From: Mesorhizobium sp. L-8-3 | GTDB taxonomy: Bacteria; Pseudomonadota; Alphaproteobacteria; Rhizobiales; Rhizobiaceae | DNA length: 64,000 nucleotides | NCBI RefSeq assembly: GCF_016756615.1 | Contig: NZ_AP023262.1 | Coordinates: 1,610,501-1,674,500, forward strand | Direction of reading: 5' to 3' | Made by a program: the position numbers and the translations under genes | Notes under the pieces: model-generated | The model's input: only the letters and a program-made list of their open reading frames with translations | Told to the model about the DNA's origin: nothing | Database searches by the model: none | Shown here: one piece after another, positions 5,074 to 11,261 of the stretch | How the letters are laid out: every line of letters begins with the position of its first letter | How positions within the stretch are numbered: position 1 is the first letter of the stretch

Positions 5074-6507
5074 TTGATCAGGGGCAATGCCATCGCGATC
5101 GAGCTGAAGGGAGACGGCAGGCAGGCCGTGTTCCTCGAGCTCGCCGCCGCGATCGTGACCGAAATCGAGCGGGGCCGGCTGAAGCCGGGCGATCCGCTCC
5201 CCGGGACGCGTGGGCTGGCGAGAAGCCTTGGTCTCAATCGCAATACGGTGGACGCCGCCTATCACGAGCTTCTCATGCAAGGTTGGCTGGTCGCCGAACC
5301 GTCGCGTGGCACCTTCGTCGCGCATGACCTGCCCGAGCTGAGCGCGGCTGCGGGGCGCGGGCGCCGCGCGGTCCCAGTGGAAACAAGGGCCACGACGCCG
5401 AGGCCGACGATCAACTTCTGCGACGGGTCGCCCGATCCGAGGCTGCTTCCATCGGCGGATCTCGCCCGGGCGTTTCGTCGGGCGCTCGCCGCACCGGCTT
5501 TCCTCGCAGCCGGGTCCTATGGCGATGTCAGGGGCAGCCCTGCGCTCCGGCAGGCCCTGGCCGGCTATCTTGGGGATGAGCGCGGGCTCGTCATCTCGGC
5601 CGACGAGGTGCTGGTCACGCGCGGCAGCCAGATGGCGCTCTTTCTCGCGGCCAGTGCCGCCCTGGAGCCCGGGCAGACGATCGCCGTCGAAGTCCCGGGC
5701 TATCCGCTGGCCTGGGCGGCATTCCGCGCCGCCGGGGCACGGATCGTCGGAATTCCGGTCGACGGCGGCGGCCTCGATATCGGGCGGCTGTCGGAGCTTG
5801 CGCTGAGTGAGCCGGGGCTGAAGGCCGTCTACGCCACGCCGCATCACCAGTATCCGACCACGGTGACGCTCGGCGCCGGCCGTCGGCTGAAGCTGATGGA
5901 GATCGCCCGTCGCCATGGCCTCACCGTCATCGAGGACGACTATGACCACGAATACCGCTTCGACGGTCGTCCCGTCCTGCCGCTCGCCGCACGTGCGGAC
6001 CAGGAGCTTCGCGTGGTCTATGTCGGCTCGCTTTCCAAATTGCTCGCACCAGGCATAAGGGTCGGCTACGCGGTGGCGAGCGGTGCCCTCCTGCAGCGCA
6101 TGGCGGATCGGCGCGAGGCGATCGACCGGCAGGGCGACCAGCCGCTGGAACAGGCGCTCGCCGCGCTGATCGAGGATGGAACGATGCGCCGGCATGCGCG
6201 CAAGGCGCGGCGCATCTATGCCGAGCGGCGGGCCTGTCTGGCCGGGCTGCTGACGGAGGCGCTCGGCGACAAGGTGTCCTTCACAGTTCCCGCCGGCGGT
6301 CTGGCGCTCTGGCTGCGGCTGGAGCAAGGCCTGAGCGCCGAGAGCTGGGCGGGCAAGGCTGCAGCGCTCGGCCTCTCCGTCATGCCGGGCATCCGCTTCG
6401 CTCTCGATCCGGCCAATCCGCCGGAAGCCTTCCGCGTCGGTTTCGGCAGCCTGAACGCAACTGAGCTGAAGCACGCCGTCGAGCTGCTCGCAAGCGCCTG
6501 TCCCTGA
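5074..6507 (+). CDS. MocR/PdxR-family regulator (GntR helix-turn-helix fused to aminotransferase)
   Basis: 477 residues. Residues about 15-85 form a GntR winged helix (GDPLPGTRGLARSLGLNRNTV). Residues about 110-477 form a fold-type-I aminotransferase domain with VIEDDYDHEYRFDG and the PLP lysine in VGSLSKLLAPGIRVGY (Lys322). Such proteins sense PLP or PLP adducts and usually control a divergent operon. Here that is the thioredoxin-like/GATase/YggS operon, which itself contains a PLP-binding protein. The start used is TTG at 5074, preceded by GAGGTAGG; the nearest downstream ATG is out of frame. Confidence 0.9.
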   Translation: MIRGNAIAIELKGDGRQAVFLELAAAIVTEIERGRLKPGDPLPGTRGLARSLGLNRNTVDAAYHELLMQGWLVAEPSRGTFVAHDLPELSAAAGRGRRAVPVETRATTPRPTINFCDGSPDPRLLPSADLARAFRRALAAPAFLAAGSYGDVRGSPALRQALAGYLGDERGLVISADEVLVTRGSQMALFLAASAALEPGQTIAVEVPGYPLAWAAFRAAGARIVGIPVDGGGLDIGRLSELALSEPGLKAVYATPHHQYPTTVTLGAGRRLKLMEIARRHGLTVIEDDYDHEYRFDGRPVLPLAARADQELRVVYVGSLSKLLAPGIRVGYAVASGALLQRMADRREAIDRQGDQPLEQALAALIEDGTMRRHARKARRIYAERRACLAGLLTEALGDKVSFTVPAGGLALWLRLEQGLSAESWAGKAAALGLSVMPGIRFALDPANPPEAFRVGFGSLNATELKHAVELLASACP

Positions 6508-6563
6508 GCCGCGTCTCCCGAAGGAGTGCAGCGGTTCCGGGAAATGACATGGGCGCGCGGGGC

Positions 6564-6594
6564 CTGTCAGCTCCTGACAGACTGCTGTCAGGAG
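6564..6594. promoter_or_regulatory. Palindromic operator upstream of the DUF1127-pfpI genes
   Basis: CTCCTGACAG-N4-CTGTCAGGAG (6571-6594) is a perfect 10-bp inverted repeat. A third half-site, CTGTCAG (6564-6570), sits in front of it, giving three half-sites in a row. It lies 42 bp before the DUF1127 start. The same palindrome recurs at 7410-7433, in front of the operon encoding a WYL regulator. No T-run follows, so it does not look like a terminator. Inferred to be the YafY-type regulator's binding site. Confidence 0.75.
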
Positions 6595-6635
6595 CGGTGT
6601 GCGATAGTGCTGCCGTAACGTCAGGGAGACTTGTC

Positions 6636-6803
6636 ATGAACGCTTTGAATCCGATCGGGATCGCCCGCGACTATTTCCACCGGATAAGGCGGATGCGCGA
6701 GGAGATTCGCACCGAGCAGCTCATCAGCTCGCTGCCCAGGGAAATCCGCAAAGACATCGGCTGGCCAGACGCCTATGCCGCCCGTCGCGCACGGCGCGCC
6801 TGA
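6636..6803 (+). CDS. DUF1127 family small protein
   Basis: 55 residues, basic, with the DUF1127 signature near the C-terminus: a LPREIRKDIGW helix after an arginine-rich RIRRMREEIRTEQL helix. DUF1127 proteins are small RNA-binding or phosphate-homeostasis-linked proteins in alphaproteobacteria; this member's role is unknown. GGGAG lies 9 nt before the ATG. It overlaps or abuts the pfpI-like gene and is preceded by the operator at 6564-6594. Confidence 0.82.
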   Translation: MNALNPIGIARDYFHRIRRMREEIRTEQLISSLPREIRKDIGWPDAYAARRARRA

Positions 6804-6813
6804 GCGGAACGGG

Positions 6814-7416
6814 ATGCCGGCCATGGCGTCGAAGACAATCGGCTTCGTCTTCATCGATCGCTTCGCCGATTGGGAATACGGTCTGCTGGCCGCGTCCGCG
6901 GTCGAGTGGTTCGGCGCCAGCACCCTTTCGCTTTCGCCTTCCGGAGAGCAGGTGGTGTCGGCGAGCGGTTTCCGCCTCGTCCCGGACCTGTGTCTCGATG
7001 CCGGCGAGAATCGCGATCTCGACGCAATCGCGGTGGTGGGCTCCGAACTGTGGCCGACCGCCGAGGCGCCCGACATATCGGCGCTTATCAAGGCCGTCGT
7101 CGCGCGCGGCGGAGTCGTCGGCGGTATCTGTGCCGGCACCCTGCCGCTGGCGCGCGCCGGCCTGTTCGCCGCGGCCCGCCACACCAGCAACGGTCGTTCC
7201 TGGCTACTGGAGAAGCTACCGGGCTATGCGGGCGCCGCGCTATACCAGGACGTGCCGCATGCCGTCGCCGACAGGAACGTGGTGTCTGCGCCCGGTTCCG
7301 CACCTGGAACCTTTGCGCATCGATATCTTGAGACGCTGTTTCCGGAAGAAGAAGCGCAGCTCGCGCACATGCCGACCATCTTTGCCAGGGAGTACGTCTC
7401 CCGCCAATCCTCCTGA
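6814..7416 (+). CDS. DJ-1/PfpI-family protein
   Basis: About 195-200 residues of the DJ-1/PfpI fold. The conserved early acid is in FADWEYG and the nucleophile elbow is VGGICAGTLPLARAG (Cys about 103). Families with this fold include glyoxalases, deglycases and chaperone-like stress proteins. An adjacent VOC (glyoxalase-fold) gene and a common operator suggest a role in carbonyl or electrophile stress. ATGs at 6814 and 6823 are both possible, with no strong SD for either. The stop codon lies inside the next operator. Confidence 0.85.
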   Translation: MPAMASKTIGFVFIDRFADWEYGLLAASAVEWFGASTLSLSPSGEQVVSASGFRLVPDLCLDAGENRDLDAIAVVGSELWPTAEAPDISALIKAVVARGGVVGGICAGTLPLARAGLFAAARHTSNGRSWLLEKLPGYAGAALYQDVPHAVADRNVVSAPGSAPGTFAHRYLETLFPEEEAQLAHMPTIFAREYVSRQSS

Positions 7417-7433
7417 CAGAATGCTGTCAGGAG
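7410..7433. promoter_or_regulatory. Second copy of the palindromic operator, upstream of VOC-yafY
   Basis: CTCCTGACAG-AATG-CTGTCAGGAG, with arms identical to those at 6571-6594 and a spacer of the same length. It overlaps the pfpI stop codon and lies 39 bp before the VOC start. Because the third gene of this operon is the WYL regulator, the site is probably autoregulatory. Confidence 0.78.
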
Positions 7434-7472
7434 AATCATGCGACAGATGCAGTCCGAAGAGGAGACCATGCG

Positions 7473-7841
7473 ATGACGTCATACGTGCCCGCCCGCGCAT
7501 CGGCCTGGTTCGAGATACCGGTGCGCGACCTCGATCGGGCGCGCGCGTTCTACGGCGCCGTGCTGCAGACCGAGATCCCCGTCATCGAGGGTGATCCCAA
7601 TCCGATCGCCATCTTTCCGAGCGAGGACGAGAAACTGGCCGGTCATCTCTATCCGGGCAAGCCGGCCGGGGACGGGACGGGGCCCACGGTCCACCTTTTC
7701 GTCGCCGCGCCGCTCGAGAGCGCCATGGAACGCGTGAAGGAGAATGGCGGCCAGGTGGTTTCGCCGATCCTTGCTGTGCCTTCAGGCAGTTTCGTCTATT
7801 GTATCGACCCCGACGGCAACAGCTTCGGGTTGTTCGTCTGA
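7473..7841 (+). CDS. VOC-family protein (glyoxalase/dioxygenase fold)
   Basis: 122 residues, two beta-alpha-beta-beta-beta modules: RASAWFEIPVRDLDRARAFYGAVL and a C-terminal SFVYCIDPDGNSFGLFV. Proteins of this kind neighbour YafY/WYL regulators in many proteobacteria, but the substrate is unknown. GAGGAG precedes the ATG. First gene of the VOC / conserved protein / regulator operon. Confidence 0.88.
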   Translation: MTSYVPARASAWFEIPVRDLDRARAFYGAVLQTEIPVIEGDPNPIAIFPSEDEKLAGHLYPGKPAGDGTGPTVHLFVAAPLESAMERVKENGGQVVSPILAVPSGSFVYCIDPDGNSFGLFV

Positions 7842-7882
7842 GCGGCGGAGCCGGATTCCGGCCGAAGTCGAAGGCTTGGACC

Positions 7883-8290
7883 ATGAAAAGCTGGACCGAA
7901 AAGTTCAACGCGCCGGCCCGTGTAGAGATCAAGCCGGTGCCGATGAGCATCGCCGGCATGAAGGCGGGCGAGATCATGCTCGTGCCCACGCCGAAACTGG
8001 TCGACGAGTTCATGCGCTCCATTCCGCGGGGTAGCCATGTCGACGTCAAGGCCATGCGCAAGATGCTGGCCGAGCGTCACGATACCGAGGTGACCTGCCC
8101 GATCTACACCGGCTACCATCTGCGGACCGTCGCGGAGGCCGCGCATGAGGCTCTTGAGCGCGGCGCGCCTCTCGAAGATATCACGCCATTCTGGCGCGTG
8201 CTCGACGCCGCCACACCGACAACCGGGCGTCTCTCCTTCGGTGCCGAGTTCGTGCATCAGAGACGCCGTGAAGAGGGCCTGCCCGCATGA
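7883..8290 (+). CDS. Conserved protein, weakly alkyltransferase-like C-terminal half
   Basis: 135 residues with no confident family. The C-terminal half (YHLRTVAEAAHEAL, then ITPFWRVLDA and LSFGAEF...RRREEG) resembles the DNA-binding half of O6-alkylguanine transferases and alkyltransferase-like proteins, in which PxHRVV precedes a GG...R element. The acceptor Cys is absent, so it cannot be a normal methyltransferase. Its last codon overlaps the regulator start (ATGA), so the two are coupled. The resemblance is tentative. Confidence 0.7.
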   Translation: MKSWTEKFNAPARVEIKPVPMSIAGMKAGEIMLVPTPKLVDEFMRSIPRGSHVDVKAMRKMLAERHDTEVTCPIYTGYHLRTVAEAAHEALERGAPLEDITPFWRVLDAATPTTGRLSFGAEFVHQRRREEGLPA

Positions 8291-8997
8291 GACGCGCCGA
8301 CCGGCTGTTCCAGATCGTCCAGCATCTGCGTGGCGGGCGCCTCGTCACTGCGCAGAAGCTCGGTGTGTGGTTGGAGGTTTCCGAACGCACGATCTATCGC
8401 GACATCGCCGATCTCCAATCCACCGGAGTGCCGATCGATGGCGAAGCGGGCGTAGGCTACATGATGAGGGAGGGTTTCGACCTTCCGCCGCTTATGTTCA
8501 CAAGGGATGAGATCGTCGCCCTGGTCGCCGGCGCCCGCATGGTGCGCGCTTTCGGAGGGGCTGCAATGGCGCGCGCCGCCGAGGAGGCGCTGGTCAAGAT
8601 CGGCGCGGTCCTGCCGGACGCCGAGAAGGACCGTATCGCCCGCACCGAGATCCACACGCCGATGTGGGTGGTGACCGACGCCGATCGCGAGGCCATCGAC
8701 CTGATCGAACGGGCCGTCGAGAAACGCGACGTGCTGGAACTCGACTACAGCGACGAGGCAGGGCGCGGCACGGCCCGCGAGGTGCGGCCGCTCGGCCTGT
8801 GGTTCTGGGGTAAGGTCTGGACGCTGATCGCCTGGTGCGAAATGCGTAATGATTTCCGGGCCTTCCGCATCGACCGCATCGGTTCGGTCAAATGCGCCGG
8901 ACGCACCTTCCGCCCGGAGCGCGGCAAGATGCTCGCGGACTATTATCGCAGCCTAGAGCGGGGCGAGGGGCCTGATCAGGCGCAGCGCCGCACCTAG
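8287..8997 (+). CDS. YafY/DeoR-type transcriptional regulator with WYL domain
   Basis: 236 residues. The N-terminal helix-turn-helix (RRADRLFQIVQHLRGGRLVT, then LEVSERTIYRDIADLQSTG) is followed by a linker and a WYL domain about 130-220 (LELDYSDEAG, WGKVWTLIAWCEMRNDFRAFR). WYL domains sense small or nucleic-acid ligands. It closes the VOC operon, and the matching palindromes at 6571 and 7410 are its likely targets, giving a self-contained two-operon regulon. Confidence 0.92.
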   Translation: MRRADRLFQIVQHLRGGRLVTAQKLGVWLEVSERTIYRDIADLQSTGVPIDGEAGVGYMMREGFDLPPLMFTRDEIVALVAGARMVRAFGGAAMARAAEEALVKIGAVLPDAEKDRIARTEIHTPMWVVTDADREAIDLIERAVEKRDVLELDYSDEAGRGTAREVRPLGLWFWGKVWTLIAWCEMRNDFRAFRIDRIGSVKCAGRTFRPERGKMLADYYRSLERGEGPDQAQRRT

Positions 8998-9299
8998 CGT
9001 TGCGCCCTTCCTATCCTGCGAGGCCGGGCGACCCTTCGCCGGTCGGGAGAGAAGCGCACAGTCGACACGACCTCCGGCCGTTGGTGTGAGGGGCGGCACG
9101 ACGGTCAAAGGTTGGAACCTATCGCATCACTTCTTGCTGCCCCGCCTGCTTTTCCATTGACGACAGGGCCGGCCTCGCCGATTTTCTGACGGATCATTTC
9201 AACTTCGAAAAGTGCGTCCGGCCAGTCCGTTGAAGTTCGTTTGACGGCGACGAGTATCATCATTCGTCGATGGCTCGCGCGCCGCCGAAAAACAGGCTT
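8998..9299. other. Intergenic, no gene seen
   Basis: No reading frame or RNA gene was recognised between the WYL regulator and the hairpin at 9300. No terminator-like hairpin was identified in it either. Confidence 0.45.
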
Positions 9300-9329
9300 G
9301 TCCTGTAAATTCCCAGTTTTTTACAGGAC
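9300..9329. promoter_or_regulatory. 10-bp inverted repeat upstream of purH
   Basis: GTCCTGTAAA and TTTACAGGAC are separated by ten bases. The AT-rich inner arms and T-run make it either an operator or an attenuator-like hairpin, on the path between a presumed promoter and the purH leader. Function inferred only from symmetry. Confidence 0.35.
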
Positions 9330-9382
9330 GACGCGGGTCTGTCAGTCCGGGTATCGCATTATCGCGTCTTTAAAACGAGGCA

Positions 9383-9466
9383 TGAATGCGCCGTGGTGAA
9401 CCACGGGGAAAGCGATCCGAACACGATGCGGTGGCGTTGGAAAGGCTCAATCTGGCGGCGCATTCA
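9383..9466 (+). ncRNA. Structured leader candidate upstream of purH
   Basis: TGAATGCGCCG (9383-9393) pairs perfectly with CGGCGCATTCA (9456-9466), an 11-bp helix enclosing 62 nt. Inside it CCGTGG-TGAA-CCACGG (9391-9406) forms a 6-bp hairpin that competes for the last bases of the outer helix, so two alternative folds exist. It lies about 180 nt before purH. The segment CCACGGGGAAAGCGA recalls part of the ZTP (pfl) riboswitch, which senses the PurH substrate. The 3' pseudoknot CCGCCTGGGC of that class was not found, so identity is open. Confidence 0.45.
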
Positions 9467-9532
9467 AAATGCCCTTGGCTTTCTCCGTTTCGCTTCGGCC
9501 GTTCATGTGTTAGGCCGCGCGCGAAGGCTGGA

Positions 9533-9612
9533 GCGTGGCGTGTTCATCGGAGAGCACAATGGGCGCTCCAGCGGTTTGAAGCCACGCATCGCGCCTTCCG
9601 AACCCTGGTTCT
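9533..9612 (-). repeat. Dispersed palindromic repeat, copy 1
   Basis: On the minus strand this unit contains a 28-nt core (9602-9575) that recurs with two mismatches at 24945-24972. Shared pieces are TTCGGAA, GCGCGATGCGTGG and TTCAAA. It also holds a CTGGAGCG/CGCTCCAG inverted pair. Intergenic mobile-looking repeats of this kind are common in rhizobial genomes. Confidence 0.65.
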
Positions 9613-9644
9613 CGGGCCGATACGGTATATAGGGGAACTCCGCC

Positions 9645-11261
9645 ATGGCGGTCGCATCGAAGAACATTCCCGCGCCCGATCTCGTTCCGGTCCGCCGTGC
9701 GCTTCTGTCGGTCTCCGACAAGACCGGCCTCGTCGAATTTGCTGCCGCTCTTTCTCATGCCGGCGTCGAGTTGGTCTCCACCGGCGGCACGGCGAAGGCG
9801 ATCGCCGCGGCCGGCATTGCGGTGAGCGACGTGTCGGAACTGACGGGTTTTCCGGAGATCATGGACGGCAGGGTCAAGACGCTGCATCCTTCCGTCCATG
9901 GCGCTTTGCTCGGGGTACGGGGCGACCCCGACCATGTCGCGGCCATGAACGAGCACGGCATCGCGCCGATCGACCTCGTGATCGTCAATCTCTATCCCTT
10001 CGAGGAGGTGCGCCATTCGGGCGCCGACTATGCCTCGGTCGTCGAAAACATCGATATCGGCGGGCCGGCCATGCTGCGCGCCGCCGCCAAGAACCATGCC
10101 TATGTCGCGGTCGTCACCGATCCCGAGGACTATGCGTCCGTCGTCAACGCGCTGGAGATGAACTTCGGCAGCCTGTCGCTCGACTTCCGCAAGAGGCTGG
10201 CGGCCAAGGCCTTTGCCCGCACCGCCGCTTATGACGCGGCGATATCGGGCTGGTTCGCCGAGGCGCTCGACGTCGAGCACCCGACCTGGCGGGCCTTCGC
10301 GGGCAAGCTGGACAATGTCATGCGTTATGGTGAGAACCCGCACCAGCAGGCGGGTTTCTATGTCACGGGCGAGAAGCGGCCGGGCGTTGCCACGGCCAGG
10401 CAATTGCAGGGCAAGCAACTCTCCTACAACAACATCAACGACACCGACGCCGCCTACGAACTCGTGGGTGAGTTCGATCCCTCGGCGGCCGCCGCGGTCG
10501 CGATCATCAAGCATGCCAATCCCTGCGGCGTCGCCGAAGGCGAATCGCTGGTGGAGGCCTACCGGAAGGCGCTGCGCTGCGACCCGGTCTCGGCCTTCGG
10601 GGGCATCGTCGCCGTCAACCGCCTGCTCGACGCCGAGGCTGCCGAAGAGATCGTGAAGGTCTTCACCGAAGTCATCATCGCGCCGGAGGCGAGCGAGGAA
10701 GCGCAGGCGATCATCGCCGCGAAGAAGAACCTGCGCCTCCTCCTCACCGGCGGCCTGCCCGATCCGCGCGCTCCCGGCATGACGGTGAAGTCGGTGGCCG
10801 GCGGGCTCCTCGTGCAGTCGCGCGACAATGCCGTGGTCGATGGTATCGACCTCAAGGTGGTTACGCGCCGGGCACCGACTGCGGCCGAGATGGCCGACCT
10901 GAAGTTCGCCTTCCGCGTGGCCAAGCATGTCAAGTCGAACGCCATCGTCTACGCCAAAGGCGGCGCGACCGTCGGCATCGGCGCCGGTCAGATGAGCCGC
11001 GTCGATTCCTCGCGCATCGCAGCGCGCAAGGCGGACGACGCCACCAAGGCGGCGGGTCTCGGCGAGTCCCTCGCAAAGGAATCCGTCGTCGCTTCCGACG
11101 CCTTCTTCCCCTTCGCTGACGGGCTGTTGTCGGCGATCGAGGCCGGCGCGACGGCAGTCATCCAGCCCGGCGGCTCGATGCGCGACGACGAGGTGATCGC
11201 GGCAGCGGACGAACACGGCATCGCCATGGTCTTCACCGGAGTCCGCCACTTCCGGCATTGA
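9645..11261 (+). CDS. purH: Bifunctional AICAR formyltransferase / IMP cyclohydrolase
   Basis: 538 residues, the full length for PurH, which catalyses the last two steps of IMP synthesis: formylation of AICAR with 10-formyl-THF, then ring closure. The N-terminal MGS-like cyclohydrolase domain (about 1-160) shows [11 protein letters not shown] and [14 protein letters not shown]. The C-terminal transformylase shows [21 protein letters not shown] and [14 protein letters not shown]. The ATG at 9645 follows GGGGAACTCCGCC. It is transcribed alone, behind a long leader with structured RNA potential. Confidence 0.98.

Follow-up and report, generated by a model that had tools for sequence, protein, structure and literature searches.

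A YafY-family WYL regulator and its palindromic operator in Mesorhizobium: a candidate LexA-independent regulon for DNA repair and electrophile removal

A 64,000-nucleotide stretch of the Mesorhizobium sp. L-8-3 genome (NZ_AP023262.1, positions 1,610,501 to 1,674,500; the window) contains a small gene cassette that includes the gene for a YafY-family transcription factor with a WYL domain, and two copies of an inverted repeat. Comparative analysis of the repeat and the regulator indicates that this operator-regulator pair is real and widely conserved. The predicted site was found at the regulator's own promoter in nearly every regulator-bearing genome and also at dispersed genes, mainly uvrB, glutathione S-transferase (GST) and fatty-acid desaturase genes and less often uvrA, GFA, MFS pump and DNA glycosylase genes. 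Judged from these sequence comparisons, the regulator is probably a compact WYL protein that activates, independently of LexA, a regulon dealing with alkylated or bulky-adduct DNA and with electrophiles; the signal and the direction of control are the parts of this reading that we infer.

Linkage of the palindrome to the regulator

Regulator orthologues were present in 39 of 81 genomes of the family, surveyed with one genome per genus and with orthologues taken as matches of at least 260 bits (the next-best match scored 185). The exact 16-of-22 core of the palindrome occurred in 33 of the 81 genomes, with 82 sites in all, and the reversed control in none (0/81). Comparison of the two distributions revealed the exact core in 32 of the 39 genomes with an orthologue versus one of the 42 without (G080), with a Fisher probability of 2e-14 in counts that, like the other linkage counts across genomes, are uncorrected for kinship. 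The seven orthologue-bearing genomes without the exact core (G008, G015, G041, G052, G055, G064 and G065) all have a regulator-adjacent site with one or two mismatches. When up to two mismatches were allowed, the site was found at the regulator's own promoter in 38 of the 39 orthologue-bearing genomes, 64 to 1417 bp upstream; in the 39th (G081) a contig end cuts the sequence 8 bp ahead of the regulator gene.

The distribution at uvrB, a gene found in 77 of the 81 genomes (37 orthologue-bearing and 40 other), follows the regulator as well. In 34 of the 37 genomes with an orthologue versus two of the 40 without, a site with at most two mismatches lies no more than 1.3 kb upstream of the conserved UvrB match; the reversed control gave 0/77. 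The two positive genomes lacking an orthologue are G080 and G011. In G011 the outer bases are changed to TGC...GCA both at uvrB and at the locus of a diverged regulator homologue (44%). G080, which has no close orthologue, carries an exact operator at uvrB (locus L326) and a TGC...GCA variant near a 38% homologue (L334). In an order-wide draw of 41 genomes, 11 gave a match of at least 200 bits; these include eight of the nine genomes that carry the pattern, and the ninth (G030) has its site just upstream of a 41% homologue. The linkage of site and regulator is therefore well supported, and the family-genome counts contradict the outcome that the first-pass annotation of this DNA had named as fatal to its reading, namely a palindrome without linkage to the regulator. 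The autoregulation and cross-regulation that it had proposed are also well supported by the comparative evidence.

Target genes of the predicted regulon

A total of 78 distinct exact sites in family loci were classified by neighbouring gene: regulator locus (34 sites), uvrB (14), GST (9), desaturase/XRE (9), uvrA (2), GFA (2), MFS (1), Tag glycosylase/YkuD (1) and other or unclear (6). The last class comprises GMP synthase, PNPOx, BKACE, one protein without a Pfam match and two unclear cases. Seven of the 78 rows were placed by hand, five at the regulator locus and two at uvrB; together with the AlkZ-like and GST sites of the own genome, the classified sites account for 80 of the 82 exact sites, the remaining two standing outside the count. 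Pfam searches of example proteins bore out the UvrB, UvrA, GFA and Tag identities. Electrophile or carbonyl stress had been suggested at first pass from the cassette genes; comparison supports the electrophile theme well, but a reading limited to carbonyl stress is too narrow in view of uvrA, uvrB and the DNA glycosylases, which suggest alkylated DNA or bulky adducts.

Membership of the SOS (LexA) regulon was considered and rejected. An exact GTTC/GAAC-N7 direct repeat, which we take to be the LexA box motif, was found at uvrB in none of the 37 orthologue-bearing genomes and in one of the 40 others, so that the box is essentially absent from uvrB in both groups.

At ten loci (L108, L145, L148, L163, L182, L191, L194, L196, L198 and L204) a conserved desaturase/XRE gene pair was seen with an operator near the desaturase start. 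Several desaturase/XRE loci share an upstream GTCGCATTG-like block and may be doubly regulated.

Promoter geometry

Analysis of the distance between the palindrome and the putative -10 element revealed a preferred spacing. The pattern (T/G)ANNNT stands at offset 9 after TGTCAGGA in 20 of 40 regulator-locus promoters, nearly all of them from other genera (mean per offset 1.36), and in five of nine GST promoters (mean per offset 0.29). Among 132 Mesorhizobium-type sequences the pattern appeared at offset 9 in 75 (mean 5.33), with offsets 11 and 33 also standing out (27 and 25). Over the 49 regulator-locus and GST promoters, the T and the G of an extended -10 were each present at 92%. The fixed spacing to an extended -10 implies that the palindrome covers the -35 position in these two promoter classes, and an operator at -35 with a fixed distance to the -10, the arrangement looked for in a WYL activator, was thus found for both. 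A sigma-70 scan of window positions 6400-9700 returned no -35/-10 pair.

Operators and genes of the cassette

The palindrome CTCCTGACAG-N4-CTGTCAGGAG occurs exactly at two places in the window, where 0.01 occurrences with up to three mismatches are expected by chance. Operator 1 (CTCCTGACAG-ACTG-CTGTCAGGAG, 6571-6594) is followed by TG-C-GATAGT, an extended -10 with the spacing TGTCAGGA-N9-(T/G)ANNNT, and operator 2 (CTCCTGACAG-AATG-CTGTCAGGAG, 7410-7433) overlaps the end of pfpI; neither is assigned a strand. The description of the pair as two identical perfect palindromes holds for the arms, which are exact and identical, and not for the spacers, which differ (ACTG versus AATG). In 78 unique sequences from relatives, the conservation of operator 1 is 98% in the arms, 98% in the spacer, 90% in the next 15 bp and 53% in the upstream 40 bp; for operator 2 it is 100% in the arms, 83% in the spacer and 59% in the upstream 40 bp. 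An additional half-site, CTGTCAG (no strand), is present at 6564-6570 ahead of the first palindrome, as had been noted, but is not conserved: it was found in the 11 bp ahead of the first site in none of 78 relative loci having that site.

The two transcription units proposed earlier were recovered, all genes lying on the forward strand. The first consists of a small gene (6636-6803) and a DJ-1/PfpI family gene (6823-7416, alternative start 6775; PF01965, E=1.5e-16), and the second of a VOC/glyoxalase-fold gene (7473-7841; PF00903, E=2.1e-9), a gene for a conserved protein (7883-8290) and the regulator gene (8287-8997). Pfam bore out the DJ-1/PfpI and VOC labels and that of the regulator. The DUF1127 label of the small gene is not supported, as the Pfam model matched neither the window protein nor any of 14 homologues (15 sequences in all; E up to 1). 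Its product is a basic protein of 55 amino acids with an IGWPD motif and without a Pfam family; D-x-GWPD is invariant in its alignment (A3), and it is the most constant partner of the regulator. The conserved protein, earlier called alkyltransferase-like, bears a weak, sub-threshold resemblance to the MGMT DNA-binding domain (PF01035, 12 bits against a cut-off of 27, E=0.19). Alignment A2 contained no PCHR or PWHR, presumably the motif of O6-alkylguanine transferases and alkyltransferase-like proteins, and its AF2 model (pLDDT 58) was too poor for a fold search.

The cassette was compared in 80 relative loci, the best 80 of 184 regulator relatives in species genomes, all of which were used; they are titled Mesorhizobium, Aminobacter, or only Rhizobiaceae, Alphaproteobacteria or bacterium. 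Two sites were found in 77 loci, two and a weak third in one, and one site in two. Between the sites the regulator was present in 80 loci, the small protein in 79, the MGMT-like protein in 63, PfpI in 42 and VOC in 18, which identifies the small protein and the regulator as the constant pair and the cargo named at first pass as optional. A MocR/PdxR-like regulator gene lies directly upstream of the cassette (window 5074-6507). Flanking genes were rejected as members of the system: within at most 5 kb on each side, and less in some loci, the MocR-like gene was beside the cassette in none of the 80 relative loci and PurH in one (32% identity, other strand). The cassette therefore appears to stand alone.

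Sites elsewhere in the genome

Allowing up to three mismatches, the 24-mer was found at 10 places in the 8,445,954-base genome of the strain versus 0.38 expected (independent bases at an assumed 63% GC) and none for the reversed control; the 18-base core is exact at three places. Eight of the ten lie outside the window. Sites with one mismatch stand 45 bp ahead of a GST gene and 168 bp ahead of an MFS transporter gene; those with two mismatches lie between an ArsR-type regulator and a second MFS transporter, and 119 bp ahead of a gene for an AlkZ-like DNA glycosylase (PF06224, E=1.6e-68). Sites with three mismatches were located between an AlkD-like protein (PF08713, E=9.7e-8) and UxuA, ahead of uvrB, between an XRE regulator and a fatty-acid desaturase, and between a TetR regulator and a short open reading frame. 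The earlier notion of a self-contained regulon is abandoned in view of these eight places and of uvrB, GST and fatty-acid desaturase, which recur as targets across genera.

The regulator protein

The regulator is a protein of 236 amino acids with an N-terminal winged helix-turn-helix (HTH) and a WYL domain, the make-up of the YafY family (Pfam HTH_11, 1.3e-15; WYL, 1.7e-17; both above cut-off), and its homologues are annotated as YafY family protein. The AF2 model (pLDDT 87.6) comprises the HTH, a helical linker and the WYL domain. A WCX domain was not found: past the WYL domain, which ends at about residue 207, the model has two short helices and the sequence no further Pfam domain. Matches in the PDB by sequence include PafBC (1.4e-8), CapW and DriD, and the leading Foldseek matches are PafBC (1.5e-11) and DriD (2e-11) with TM-scores near 0.5, so the domain arrangement differs from these proteins or is uncertain. 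R191, R194 and Cys184, the last of these in a WCE motif, never vary among the 32 aligned sequences, and R187 and R197 hardly do.

Occurrence beyond the family

A plasmid collection yielded 11 records with homologues at 44-48% identity, and four of these loci, together with a Klebsiella record, were scanned for the site. Three of the four distant loci keep the site or the form TGCTGACA-N6-TGTCAGCA: the VOC-YafY locus of Enterobacter hormaechei has an exact CTCCTGACAGTATGCTGTCAGGAG, and the Sandaracinus and Erythrobacteraceae loci have CTGCTGACA-N6-TGTCAG variants. The scanned Vibrio locus had no site. The link between regulator and site thus extends to Enterobacter and Myxococcota. The Klebsiella record (5.37 Mb) contained a single site with at most two mismatches, located at the VOC-YafY operon; compared with the dispersed sites of the family, this suggests that the unit can be local there and dispersed here. 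This record (L345, CP125156.1) is filed as a plasmid and contains secF and more than 4000 features; it looks like a mislabelled chromosome. On an Erythrobacteraceae plasmid (L344, CP115967.1), VOC, YafY, GFA and glyoxalase-superfamily genes are clustered near the regulator.

Proposed mechanism and alternative explanations

The WYL factor encoded at 8287-8997 is predicted to bind TCCTGACA-N6-TGTCAGGA and presumably does so as a dimer. In front of its own cassette and of GST the activator would replace the -35 element and recruit RNA polymerase to a poor extended -10, in the manner of DriD. The signal would be damage that alkylating or bulky electrophiles cause in DNA, probably sensed through single-stranded DNA (ssDNA) in the WYL groove. 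The output would combine repair (nucleotide excision, base glycosylases) with electrophile removal (glutathione transfer, DJ-1, VOC and efflux).

Several observations weigh against this interpretation. The uvrB (13) and desaturase (7) promoters lack the -10 spacing, which suggests that these sites work differently or are not activated, and visual inspection showed a fit to the geometry at only three of the ten sites in the own genome (operator 1, GST and, in part, operator 2). The own-genome AlkD-like, uvrB, desaturase and TetR sites stand at three mismatches, the level at which 0.38 chance places are expected; AlkZ-like and AlkD-like genes were not met as targets in the fetched loci of other genera. 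The desaturase site adjoins an XRE gene in every such locus seen, and the XRE protein could be its reader. G052, G064 and G081 have an orthologue yet no uvrB site, and G080 has a uvrB site without a close orthologue. The UvrB tree shows 7 changes in the regulator and 10 in the site, and the tree test has three usable independent pairs (2.4 agree and 0 oppose on average), which puts significance out of reach.

Two alternatives keep the regulator and its sites and change how it works. Direct sensing of an electrophile or small thiol adduct instead of DNA damage, for example through Cys184, is conceivable though doubtful: the GST, GFA, VOC and DJ-1 targets and the invariance of this cysteine favour it, but Cys184 is no less invariant in aligned homologues that have no such site at their loci, and uvrA, uvrB and the glycosylases are DNA-repair genes. 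The four conserved arginines also argue for DNA, as they resemble those needed for ssDNA binding by SiwR in the available part of its description (PMC10693628). Repression by the same protein, which at -35 would block the polymerase until released by an inducer, appears somewhat unlikely. It would suit the overlap of the site with the -35 position and the place of the desaturase site between a conserved upstream block and the gene. Repressors exist among WYL proteins, BrxR and CapW being two of them; both regulate defence systems, as far as the available accounts go. Activation is better suited by the non-consensus -10 elements and by the lack of a detected -35 hexamer, and most uvrB sites shown lie about 50 bp upstream of a CATATT box; the nearest folds, PafBC and DriD, are those of activators.

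A different factor as reader of the palindrome, with the WYL gene merely among its targets, is very improbable. The G080 uvrB site and the XRE gene beside the desaturase site speak for such a factor, but 32 of the 33 pattern-positive genomes have the orthologue, the sole site in the Klebsiella record is at the VOC-YafY operon, and the diverged homologue of G011 shares its altered outer bases with uvrB. Within the preferred reading of a WYL activator responding to DNA damage, a bolder and unlikely extension is that oligonucleotides excised by UvrABC serve as the signal, repair reporting on itself in a positive loop, and that a one-operon VOC-regulator unit like that of Klebsiella grew into the genome-wide regulon. 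Such oligonucleotides could be the signal because the regulator is linked to uvrB, and to uvrA in some genera, and because short ssDNA activates WYL proteins of this type.

To our knowledge, WYL regulators are very common and few have a known regulon or operator. Here an operator, a candidate regulon and a promoter geometry can be read from sequence over dozens of genera and into other phyla, and it becomes directly testable whether nitrogen-fixing and soil Alphaproteobacteria control nucleotide-excision repair independently of LexA.

Comparison with known systems

The Ada adaptive response is an inducible response to DNA alkylation and in this respect resembles the proposed regulon, but the Ada metal-binding domain was not found in the own genome. 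Among the family genomes the Ada domain was present in seven of 39 orthologue-bearing genomes versus 21 of 42 others (p=0.005, kinship not corrected), a difference that fits replacement of Ada without proving it. For lineages lacking Ada, the regulon is a candidate to fill the place of the absent alkylation response. According to the available part of one report, Brucella abortus has no Ada-based system, a trait that it shares with some other alphaproteobacteria (PMC6813329).

No description of this operator or regulon was found among the open-licence PMC matches listed, and the WYL activators below are compared on the available portions of their reports. DriD of Caulobacter crescentus, an ssDNA-activated WYL activator, has a pseudo-palindromic site that overlaps -35 at a fixed distance from poor -10 elements with a conserved G-14 (PMC12340889, preprint). 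It resembles the present regulator as an alphaproteobacterial HTH-WYL homologue with a -35 operator at a fixed distance from a weak -10 and a non-SOS DNA-damage regulon (PMC12340889). It differs in chain length (324-347 residues versus 236 here, without a WCX domain seen), in its site when the consensus sequences are compared (ATACGAC-N7-GTCGTAT versus TCCTGACA-N6-TGTCAGGA), and in its named targets, which are didA, bapE, recJ, dnaG and one divergent operon and not uvrA/uvrB or detoxification genes (PMC12340889).

SiwR of Mycobacterium smegmatis is likewise a homodimeric WYL activator for genotoxic stress, with a 19-bp imperfect palindrome spanning -35 to -10 and with neighbouring genes of the DinB superfamily, to which thiol S-transferases belong, and with a glyoxalase-like neighbour in some species; in contrast, it has a WCX domain, belongs to Actinobacteria and is described primarily for one operon (PMC10693628). 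Mycobacterial PafBC, the best Foldseek match of the regulator, is an ssDNA-activated WYL activator of a LexA-independent repair regulon that works by sigma adaptation, contacting a -26 motif and sigma domain 4 in place of -35, but it is a heterodimer with a non-palindromic motif and WCX domains (PMC6789036, PMC11804915). By sequence comparison, then, the predicted system is a new regulon of the type governed by WYL activators, and its operator, domain composition and targets set it apart from those of DriD, SiwR and PafBC.

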